From Gemmatimonadota bacterium (lineage in GTDB: Bacteria; GCA-2686955), in contig NYZA01000042.1 in the NCBI GenBank assembly GCA_002686955.1, positions 1 to 7,957 of the forward strand: a DNA stretch of 7,957 bases, read 5' to 3'. The translations under genes were made by a program, and so were the position numbers. Under the pieces are notes generated by a model. The model was not told the DNA's origin. It made no database searches and saw only the letters and a program-made list of their open reading frames with translations. Shown piece after piece: positions 1,401 through 7,957 of this stretch (the stretch's first letter is position 1; each line of letters starts with the position of its first letter).

Positions 1401-2165
1401 ATGTCAGTAATCGACCCAACCATGGGTGAATGGAGAACCCCTGGCGAACCGGGGCGGGCGCCCGATCAAGGGCACGAGGGAAGTGCCCTGGTCGACCGGC
1501 CGAGGGAGCGGTTGCGCGCACTCGGCGCGGTCTCGCTGGCCGACGAGGAGCTGATGGCCCTGATCTTGGCGACGGGAGCTCGAAATACTCCGGTGATCGA
1601 GCTCGCGGGGCGGCTCATGAAGGAGGGGGGCGGGCTGCGGCGAATGTCGGCGCGGAGCGTGGGGGAGCTCGAGCGCTATCACGGCCTGGGACCGGCGAAG
1701 GCGTCGAGGATCGCGGCGGCCTTCGAGATGGGGCGGCGGGTGGCGCGACTTCCGTTGCGCGCGGGCGAGAGCATCACTTCGGCGGCCGATGTAGCGGCAC
1801 ATTTCGGTCCCCATTTGCGCGACCGGAAGCAGGAGATCTTCCTGACTTTGCTGCTCGACGGGCGGCGGCGGCTGCTACGGGCGGCGAGGGTGGCCGAGGG
1901 ATGTTTGACGGCGGCGCTGGTCCATCCGCGCGAGGCGTTGCGACCTGGAGTGCTGGAGGCCGCGGCGGCGGTGATCTTCGTACACAACCATCCTTCGGGC
2001 GATCCGACGCCCAGCCCGGAGGATCTCGATCTCACGCACCAGCTCGTGCGGGCGGCCGACATTTTGGCGATCGAGGTGCTCGACCATGTGATCGTGGGTG
2101 ACGGGACGCACACGAGTCTTCTCGCGGAGGGGCTGTTGCGGCCTGAGCTCGGTGTCTCGGCGTGA
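1401..2165 (+). CDS. radC: RadC family JAB/MPN-domain protein
   Basis: This 254-residue protein belongs to the RadC (UPF0758) family. Residues about 31-118 are the N-terminal helical domain with a helix-hairpin-helix-like segment (LERYHGLGPAKASRIAAAFE). Residues about 125-250 are the JAB/MPN metalloprotease-like domain. The JAMM motif is complete: H195-N-H197, seven residues, S205, two residues, D208, in VHNHPSGDPTPSPED; Glu145 in KQEIF is the likely upstream acid. These residues bind zinc in JAMM peptidases, but the cellular role of RadC is unsettled; the old DNA-repair assignment from E. coli is not well supported. Homologues are near 220-230 residues; the excess here is an N-terminal tail of about 25-30 polar residues. 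It stands alone, with a 257-bp gap before it and the inverted-repeat array starting 37 bp after its stop. No phage or plasmid gene adjoins it. Confidence 0.93.
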   Translation: MSVIDPTMGEWRTPGEPGRAPDQGHEGSALVDRPRERLRALGAVSLADEELMALILATGARNTPVIELAGRLMKEGGGLRRMSARSVGELERYHGLGPAKASRIAAAFEMGRRVARLPLRAGESITSAADVAAHFGPHLRDRKQEIFLTLLLDGRRRLLRAARVAEGCLTAALVHPREALRPGVLEAAAAVIFVHNHPSGDPTPSPEDLDLTHQLVRAADILAIEVLDHVIVGDGTHTSLLAEGLLRPELGVSA

Positions 2166-2201: not shown

Positions 2202-2435
2202 TGTGTCACAACTCCCGATTCAAGGATTGAAACACGGAGCTATGACGCATATGGCTGTCGTAACTGCCCGATCACCCATGAGAAATGTGAGTTGCGACAC
2301 ACATATCGGTCGCAAGTGGAGGTCCAATTCGTGAATGAGAAGTTGTGACGCAAAGAACTGTCGCAACTGTGGCTTCTACTTCCGGAGCTCGAGGTTGTGA
2401 CCTGGAGAAGCCGGTGGCCCGTGAATTGTGACGCG
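2202..2435. repeat. Array of alternating inverted copies of a GAGTTGYGACRCA motif, 51-52 bp period
   Basis: Nine copies of a heptamer core TTGYGAC (with CTATGAC and TTACGAC variants) are visible. Plus-strand cores: 2240-2246, 2292-2298, 2343-2349, 2395-2401, 2426-2432. Minus-strand cores: 2205-2211, 2257-2263, 2309-2315, 2360-2366. The first eight alternate minus/plus. Same-orientation spacing is 52, 52, 51 for the minus copies and 52, 51, 52 for the plus copies. Three complete inverted pairs (2240-2263, 2292-2315, 2343-2366) each have exactly 10 nt between cores and stems of 7-9 pairs. The stems differ but still pair: A-T in the first, G-C in the others at one position, and T.G against C-G at the next. 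Sequence between copies is not conserved and looks more A/T-rich than its flanks. This may be an operator array, an RNA hairpin series or a REP/BIME-like element; no known family was recognised. Confidence 0.75.
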
Positions 2436-2677
2436 GGGTGGAGTGCGTGGAGCTTCGCCGCCCCTTTTTGCCTGGCAGGGCGTCGCGTTCGGGGCGCGCG
2501 GGGCGACGGGGCATGCCTGGCTCGGGTTCACGGAACCCGATCGCAGTGCGTCCCCCATCCAAAGTCTTCTCTTCCGGGAACTCCCGCGACGGAGTCACGC
2601 CCATCGAGCCCAAGGAGCGCGCCGACGAATGCGCTAAGCTCTGCCCCTCTCCAGAACCTCTGTCCGTAGGCACGCAC
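2436..2677. other. Non-coding stretch between the repeat array and the aminotransferase gene
   Basis: No further motif copy, convincing promoter or terminator is seen. The aminotransferase frame is open back to 2438, but the translation there (Arg/Pro/Ser-rich) does not resemble the family N-terminus. The promoter for the 2678-5485 genes presumably lies here or in the array, but I could not find one. Confidence 0.5.
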
Positions 2678-3880
2678 ATGACAGACATCCACCGCCTGAA
2701 TCCTGTCGTCGATCGGATCGAACCTTCCGCCACGATCGCGATTACGAACCGGGCTCGAGAGTTGAAACGAGCCGGAGTCGATGTGATCTCCTTGAGCGCA
2801 GGCGAGCCCGATTTCGACACTCCGGCGCACATCATCGAAGCGGCTTTCGCGGGGGTGAAGGCGGGGATGACCCGCTACACGCCGGCCGACGGCTCGCTCG
2901 AGCTGAAAGAGGCGATCGCGGCCAAGCTGAAGCGCGAGAACGGGGTCGATTACGCGCTGGAGGAGATTGCGGCCTCTTGCGGAGGGAAACACACGCTGCA
3001 CAATATCTTCGCGGTGATTCTGGCGCCGGGCGACGAGGTGATCATTCCCGCTCCATACTGGGTGAGCTACCCGGAGCAGGTGCGGCTGGCGGGGGGCGTT
3101 CCGCGGGTGATCGAGGCCGGCGCGGGGGACGGTTTTCGGATCACGGCGGAGATGTTCGAAGAGGCGATCGGCGAGCGGACGCGCGCGCTCGTCCTCAATT
3201 CGCCGAGCAACCCGACGGGGGCGGTCTACGGGAGGGCCGAGATCGAGGCGCTGGTCGAGGTGGCGGTGAGGCGCGGGGTGCTCGTCGTTTCCGATGAGGT
3301 GTACGAGCACATCCTCTACGATGGGGCGGCCCAGATTTCGCCGGCGTCGCTCTCGGCCGAGGCGCGGGAGCATGTGATCGTGGCGAACTCGGTGAGCAAG
3401 ACCTACGCAATGACCGGATGGCGGGTCGGCTATGCGGCGGGTCCGGCGAAGATCATGAGGGCGATGGCGCGGCTGCAGAGCCACCAGAGCCAGAATCCGG
3501 CGAGCCCTTCGCAGGCGGCCGCCACGGCGGCGCTCGGCGGGGGACTCGATTGCGTTCGACCGATGCTCGCGGCCTTCACGGAGCGGCGAGCGATGACGAT
3601 CGGCGCGATCGAGTCGATGCCGGGCCTGAGCCTGGCGGTGCCGCGGGGCGCCTTCTACGCCTTCCCCGACGCGACCGAGGTTCTGCGGCCGGCCGGGTCG
3701 CGATTCGAGGGTTCGGTCGGTCTGTGCGCGCATCTTCTCGACGAATACAAAGTGGCCTGCGTGCCGGGCGAGGCGTTCGGAGCGCCGACCTGCTTCCGGA
3801 TCTCGTTCGCGACGGCGACCGATGCACTGCGGGAGGCGCTCGATCGGATCGCGCGGGCGATCGGAGCTCTGCGCCGCTGA
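2678..3880 (+). CDS. Class I (fold type I) PLP aminotransferase, aspartate aminotransferase-like
   Basis: This 400-residue enzyme has normal family length. The start ATG has a weak AGG 7 nt upstream, and the translation begins at the expected place for class Ib aspartate aminotransferases (RIEPSATIAITNRARELK). Visible landmarks: SLSAGEPDFDTP at 38-49; GGKHTLHN at 102-109; the PLP-stacking region PYWVSYPEQ at 126-134; NSPSNPTG with Asn178; SDEVYE with Asp206, which pairs with the PLP ring nitrogen; SKTYAMTGWR with Lys241, the Schiff-base lysine; FRIS with Arg374, which binds the substrate alpha-carboxylate. It is a cytosolic enzyme moving amino groups between aspartate or similar amino acids and 2-oxoglutarate. 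Some class Ib members also use prephenate. The gene lies 21 bp upstream of serA and is probably co-transcribed with it, so a role in serine synthesis is possible but inferred. Confidence 0.92.
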   Translation: MTDIHRLNPVVDRIEPSATIAITNRARELKRAGVDVISLSAGEPDFDTPAHIIEAAFAGVKAGMTRYTPADGSLELKEAIAAKLKRENGVDYALEEIAASCGGKHTLHNIFAVILAPGDEVIIPAPYWVSYPEQVRLAGGVPRVIEAGAGDGFRITAEMFEEAIGERTRALVLNSPSNPTGAVYGRAEIEALVEVAVRRGVLVVSDEVYEHILYDGAAQISPASLSAEAREHVIVANSVSKTYAMTGWRVGYAAGPAKIMRAMARLQSHQSQNPASPSQAAATAALGGGLDCVRPMLAAFTERRAMTIGAIESMPGLSLAVPRGAFYAFPDATEVLRPAGSRFEGSVGLCAHLLDEYKVACVPGEAFGAPTCFRISFATATDALREALDRIARAIGALRR

Positions 3881-7859: not shown

Positions 7860-7880
7860 GCCTCAAGAGGCTAGGAGCCT
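7860..7880 (+). terminator. Overlapping hairpins after the membrane protein gene (weak terminator candidate)
   Basis: Two mutually exclusive stems overlap: GCCTC/GAGGC (7860-7871) and AGGCT/AGCCT with an AGG loop (7868-7880). There is no T-tract; GTTGCA follows. They may shape the RNA end but are not a classical Rho-independent terminator. Confidence 0.25.
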
Positions 7881-7957
7881 GTTGCACATAGCCTTCGCTT
7901 CGCCCGGCATCCGCCTTCGTTCCGATCTCTGCGTTGACGGGGCGCCATCCAGGCGCC
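7873..7957. repeat. Possible edge of a dispersed repeat or insertion-related sequence
   Basis: After the last gene the text becomes rich in short inverted words: CTTCGCTTCGC, GGCGCC at 7941-7946 repeated at 7952-7957 around ATCCA, and AGGAGCCTGTTGCA near the left side, a word resembling insertion-sequence ends. No gene is visible and the window stops here. This is impression-level evidence; only a genome-wide copy search can decide. Confidence 0.2.

Follow-up and report, generated by a model that had tools for sequence, protein, structure and literature searches.

A phased half-site array downstream of radC is very probably the interior of an old, truncated MITE-like element

An array of inverted half-sites between radC and an aminotransferase gene

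The stretch of DNA analysed here, referred to as the window, comprises 7,957 nucleotides and is contig C42 of genome G000, a MAG of 4.28 Mb in 270 contigs that is 84.5% complete. An intergenic gap of 512 bp separates the radC stop at 2165 from the start of an aminotransferase gene at 2678, and it contains an array of short motifs in alternating orientation, followed by a repeat arm that we call X. The half-sites are the 7-mers GTCRCAA and TTGYGAC, named M and P, respectively.

1401-2165, plus strand: radC, the upstream neighbour (Pfam RadC, UPF0758_N)
2202-2435, no strand assigned: array of about four 52-bp units and one extra half-site, defined by shuffle counts, spacing and homology
2204-2247, plus strand: unit 1, M at 2205-2211 and P at 2240-2246, gap of 28 nt
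2256-2299, plus strand: unit 2, M at 2257-2263 and P at 2292-2298
2308-2350, plus strand: unit 3, M at 2309-2315 and P at 2343-2349, gap of 27 nt
2359-2402, plus strand: unit 4, M at 2360-2366 and P at 2395-2401
2426-2432, plus strand: additional P half-site, 31 bp beyond the P of unit 4, out of phase with the others, where the array meets arm X
2436-2554, minus strand: right arm X, a subterminal inverted repeat adjoining the array (model R2)
2678-3880, plus strand: aminotransferase class I/II gene, the downstream neighbour (Pfam Aminotran_1_2)

At the start of the window, on the minus strand at 3-1236, lies a probable secreted glycoside-hydrolase-like gene that is apparently split into two frames; a run of seven G is found near 388-394, and the split reflects a sequencing error or else a genuine frameshift.

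A first-pass annotation of the window had described nine motif copies at 2202-2435, and its coordinates, spacing and alternation are all correct. Successive half-sites lie 35, 17, 35, 17, 34, 17, 35 and 31 bp apart. The P-to-P and M-to-M period of 51-52 bp, about five helical turns, was likewise borne out, and the ninth copy is on the same strand and 31 bp out of phase, as that reading had implied. Exact matches to TTGYGAC/GTCRCAA are present in seven of the nine half-sites, with one mismatch in the copy at 2257 and two in the copy at 2240. When counted against shuffled sequence, as the annotation had proposed, the array exceeds chance: 2166-2677 holds 7 exact cores, compared to a mean of 0.16 and a maximum of 4 in 2000 dinucleotide shuffles. 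The three inverted pairs with 10-nt gaps that it reported are partly upheld, in that two are found in 2166-2677 at one mismatch or fewer (shuffle mean 0.0045) and the third (2240/2257) is reached only at two mismatches.

The 28-nt gap from M to P is likewise flanked by an extended imperfect palindrome, which the first reading had missed, as it had the repeat arm directly after the array at 2436-2554. Comparison of copies showed that M-28-P is an extended palindrome as valid as the 24-bp P-10-M unit. The statement that paired arms vary together did not hold up: pairing and co-variation equal the shuffled expectation in both comparisons made (9 units with 9 pairs for the 10-nt gap; 10 units with 14 pairs for the 28-nt gap), and the differences between units resemble scattered transitions on either side.

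Copies of the array in the host genome

The host genome was searched at the DNA level, using the window array and the copy on contig C139 as queries, and also by means of a 52-nt unit model. Besides the window, six other array loci were found, plus two remnants (C128 and C102); full copies are named below by their contigs.

C139:12403-12570: array copy
C266:7340-7490: array copy
C55:2700-2820: array copy
C171:44200-44315: array copy, at the contig end
C149:6545-6690: array copy
C68:13986-14130: array copy

DNA and unit-model searches both identified the window array as homologous to the C139, C55, C171 and C266 copies. These four form one recent subfamily of about 90% identity that reaches beyond the array, and the window, C149 and C68 copies are old and diverged. 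The half-site spacing of 35/17 bp is common to every full copy, and the window copy has one unit more than the C139 type. Homology thus identifies the window array as the interior of a dispersed element, in a diverged copy.

The copies always lie in intergenic repeat islands, and the genes beside them are unrelated (RadC, GreA/B, a sigma-54 activator, ClpP, radical SAM, TilS, NMT1 and SIS). The first-pass annotation had left a REP-like family, an operator and an RNA element as candidates, to be separated by a genome-wide search for recurrence, and the array was indeed found again, in islands of this kind. Since it recurs beside unrelated genes, the notion of a dispersed element was right and that of a radC operator wrong; neither a REP assignment nor RNA-hairpin co-variation survived.

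Inverted arms, tips and target-site duplications

Arm X is about 125 bp long and has about 117 matches in the host genome (genome scan with model R2), which reveals a large MITE-like family in a poorly sampled bacterial lineage. Both X models, A4 and R2, were trained without the window sequence, and R2 matches the window at 2436-2554 with 40 bits and an E-value of 3e-11 (1.5e-9 in the genome scan). At nine of nine array places X lies within about 0.5 kb, oriented so that the array is on its inner side, for which the calculated chance is about 1.3% per array place. In C149 and C68, inverted X arms are present on both sides of the array. The right arms of C149, C68 and C266 are 0.69-0.75 identical to each other and the left arms of C149, C68 and C139 0.70-0.72; left-versus-right identities are mostly lower, with the exception of C149-right against C139-left (0.72). 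Because left and right arms fall into separate identity groups, arm, array and arm were probably inherited as one unit.

A 16-bp tip, CTGACGTTTCGAYATA, lies about 26 nt outside X. It has 41 genomic sites at two mismatches, compared to 0 for a reversed control pattern, and at seven loci inverted tips bound elements that span 195-826 bp. Exact target-site duplications abut the tips in two of the seven pairs tested, namely AAACTCC in the C133 element and TTCGGCGG in the C128 element, which carries an array remnant inside; the other five have old or mixed ends. With terminal inverted repeats, a target-site duplication, short length, multiple copies and no transposase gene, the elements show the hallmarks of MITEs.

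In the window itself, no tip was found within 3 mismatches on either side of the array, and neither X nor tip matched on the left, between the radC stop and the array. The window copy is thus truncated: its right arm X remains, and the left arm, both tips and a duplication are lacking.

A putative parent transposase

A genome of the same family and another genus, G001, has one X match (R2, E 5e-10). On its contig C421 a tip and X are followed, about 245 nt inward, by an open ORF that spans no fewer than 252 aa and continues past the contig end. This ORF matches DDE_Tnp_1 with an E-value of 0.0096 and 16.1 bits, below the Pfam cut-off of 23 bits, and gives weak matches to IS5/IS4 transposase models. 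In the host genome, fragments 75-79% identical to it occur on C6, where they lie inward of an X arm, and on C180; no intact transposase was found in the host MAG (84.5% complete), and neither a plasmid collection nor PHROGs yielded transposase homologues. Given the association of tip, X and a DDE-like ORF in G001, and the relics in the host, X most likely represents the end of a DDE insertion sequence from which the array-bearing elements were derived as non-autonomous forms. The presumed parent resembles IS4/IS5-like (DDE_Tnp_1) insertion sequences in its inverted tip, transposase ORF and 7-8-bp duplications; unlike them, its DDE_Tnp_1 and IS5/IS4 matches stay below the family cut-offs. Up to the contig end, the G001 C421 piece shows tip, X and ORF and no array.

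The C6 locus was considered as an autonomous copy, with 3,054 bp between its tips, and was rejected, since nothing but transposase relics and a beta-helix ORF of unrelated kind was found in it. There (L101 1038-4091; C6:9037-12090), the bounding inverted tips are of two types, and between them lie an X arm, the decayed transposase and an ORF of 517 aa. This right-handed beta-helix-like ORF is possibly a case of composite gene capture between MITE ends.

Distribution beyond the host

The 52-nt unit model (R1) had no match in 97 other genomes, G001 included, and the X model R2 was run on 30 other genomes. G001 was the sole same-family genome among the relatives, and beyond it none belonged to the host's order, class or phylum. 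In 84,980 species genomes, from which the host records were possibly left out, a scan for the exact pattern returned one isolated hit, in a Micavibrio MAG, where a single motif pair stands without an array and is within chance expectation. The same kind of scan of viral contigs, again with host records possibly left out, returned none.

The array as part of a MITE-like element

Taken together, the dispersed copies, the inverted X arms, the tips, the duplications and the joining of tip and X to a DDE-like transposase ORF in G001 indicate that the array is internal transposon cargo. We conclude that it very probably belongs to the interior of a non-autonomous, MITE-like DNA transposon, and that the copy in the window is old and shortened at both ends. 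In intact members, the tip CTGACGTTTCGAYATA is followed by X of about 125 bp, an interior whose array has three to four units of 52 bp, another arm or a different end, and lastly the tip in inverted orientation. A DDE-like transposase would move such elements in trans by reading their tips, and the array would hitch-hike, being copied as part of the element. Less surely, the half-sites at their five-turn period may be, or may once have been, sites for a dimeric protein (the transposase or some factor of the host) and not just a neutral tandem duplication. The window array implies no function for radC or the genes around it, and it illustrates how the remains of a degraded mobile element can look like a regulatory array.

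Nearest in kind are MITEs with internal tandem repeats, among which the present element is lineage-specific and has a mildly unusual interior. BrickBuilt, from Porphyromonas gingivalis, is a MITE with an internal minisatellite (PMC4596501). Both are non-autonomous, intergenic and species-limited, with inverted-repeat ends, variable target-site duplications and an interior of tandem units (PMC4596501). Whereas BrickBuilt contains 23-bp direct repeats without spacers (PMC4596501), the units described here are 52 bp long, few and diverged, with alternating inverted half-sites at two fixed spacings, and they are carried between arms of about 125 bp.

The array also resembles REP/BIME elements (PMC2817692), in which motifs are regularly spaced and alternate in orientation, and which are intergenic, dispersed in many copies and restricted to a lineage. 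Those elements are mobilised by RAYT transposases (PMC2817692). Here, unlike in REP/BIME, no RAYT was found, there is no GTAG head, and the half-sites are not self-palindromic hairpins; the carrier, moreover, has DDE-type inverted ends and target-site duplications. The absence of a REP head had been recognised in the first-pass annotation, and the GTAG tag is indeed lacking from the aligned units. The sole Y1_Tnp match in the MAG (84.5% complete) is the following.

C59:8842-9117 (L070): TnpA of IS200 type, truncated; no array nearby

Since this single Y1 transposase is a truncated IS200 TnpA with no array in its vicinity, a RAYT/REP origin is not supported and was rejected. In the CGTC-REPs (PMC3733652), as in the array, an extended half-site (C/T)GTCRCAAC stands at the foot of an inverted repeat. 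CGTC-REPs have a stem of 8-9 bp, a loop of 4-5 nt and a CCA tail (PMC3733652); this class was rejected for the array, whose loops are 10 or 28 nt and which has no CCA tail. An integron attC array was discarded as well: the half-site GTTGYGAC does not fit the RYYYAAC/GTTRRRY boxes, in agreement with the earlier remark that GTTRRRY is not matched.

Possible roles of the array within the element

The readings below, and the likelihoods attached to them, apply to the role of the array inside the element; they do not compete with the element itself, which we hold to be very probable. We give an even chance to the array being a neutral relic. In this reading a 52-bp palindromic unit would have been tandemly duplicated once in an ancestral element and carried along since, its cores persisting only through recent common descent and through the way in which the copies were found. 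The identity of about 90% among four copies beyond the array is consistent with this, as are the lack of co-variation between paired arms and the existence of MITEs with internal tandem repeats of no proven role, such as BrickBuilt (PMC4596501). On the other hand, the spacers of C139, C149 and C68 have changed more quickly than the cores, and indels inside the array are nearly absent.

In a second reading, which we regard as plausible and somewhat short of even, the half-sites are functional and constitute helically phased candidate sites for a dimeric protein, be it the transposase or a host factor acting as enhancer or repressor. The 35/17 bp spacing (period 51-52 bp) has been kept while the intervening DNA is about 45-60% identical, and among C139, C149 and C68, with the window excluded, identity is 0.73 in the cores versus 0.56 between them, a difference that circularly shifted masks reach in only 2 of 152 cases, one of which is a shift of 1 nt. 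The earlier proposal of selection on the motif thus finds some support in diverged copies other than the window, where cores are better conserved than intervening DNA and spacing is kept. In the same comparison the X arms are 0.57-0.75 identical, so that the cores evolve about like the arms and the spacers faster. Because the cores outlast the intervening DNA in other copies, phased protein-binding sites are a possibility. However, the copies were found by a model that favours cores, and part of the conservation is therefore ascertainment; furthermore, the parent-like G001 element shows no array. The half-site GTTGCGAC is loosely like the tip stretch GTTTCGAY, a likeness that is not significant (permutation p ~0.06), and derivation of the half-site from the transposon tip was rejected on that value. 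We consider a narrower version rather unlikely, in which a dimeric protein, perhaps the DDE transposase of the parent, binds the phased alternating half-sites cooperatively and thereby drives or restrains non-autonomous transposition. If the half-sites are real binding sites, the family would exemplify in nature a transposition signal that is internal and built as an array.

It is improbable that the array forms structured RNA, that is, hairpins in element transcripts from neighbouring genes that would serve as a terminator, mRNA stabiliser or processing site. The plus strand does fold better than shuffles (z -4.6 for the window, z -2.9 for C139), but inverted repeats alone yield such z-scores, compensatory change is no more frequent than in shuffles under either the 10-nt-gap or the 28-nt-gap pairing, and the best fold of the window joins distant arms instead of forming repeated unit hairpins. 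An Rfam search retrieved no family and only a chance miRNA match (E 0.88). It is very improbable that the array acts as an operator or regulon site, either for radC or for the biosynthetic genes downstream: the array does lie directly downstream of radC and its 24-bp sites are palindromic, but the neighbours of other copies are unrelated, the array occurs only inside the transposon family and is absent from the same-family genome and 96 others, and no sigma-70 promoter-like site was found in 2100-2700.

Other repeats in the host genome

Between X and the array, C139, C55, C171 and partly C266 have in common a GC-rich, coding-like stretch containing AALIAAMTAALVSMAAGG (L003 ~1220-1290; left flanks of L021 and L022), for which no Pfam match was found. 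A second dispersed palindromic family, with the sequence AAGGGTTCGCGCAAGAATAGAATG, is present for example at C55:2985-3386 (L044) and C41:203-316. This family and X at C55 have the 16-bp tip CTGACGTTTCGACATA in common, which suggests that several MITE families may use one transposase. Finally, GGAGCCTGTTGCACATAG, at 7874-7891 near the contig end of the window, is also found at C139:12111-12128 inside the C139 element and is probably another dispersed repeat.
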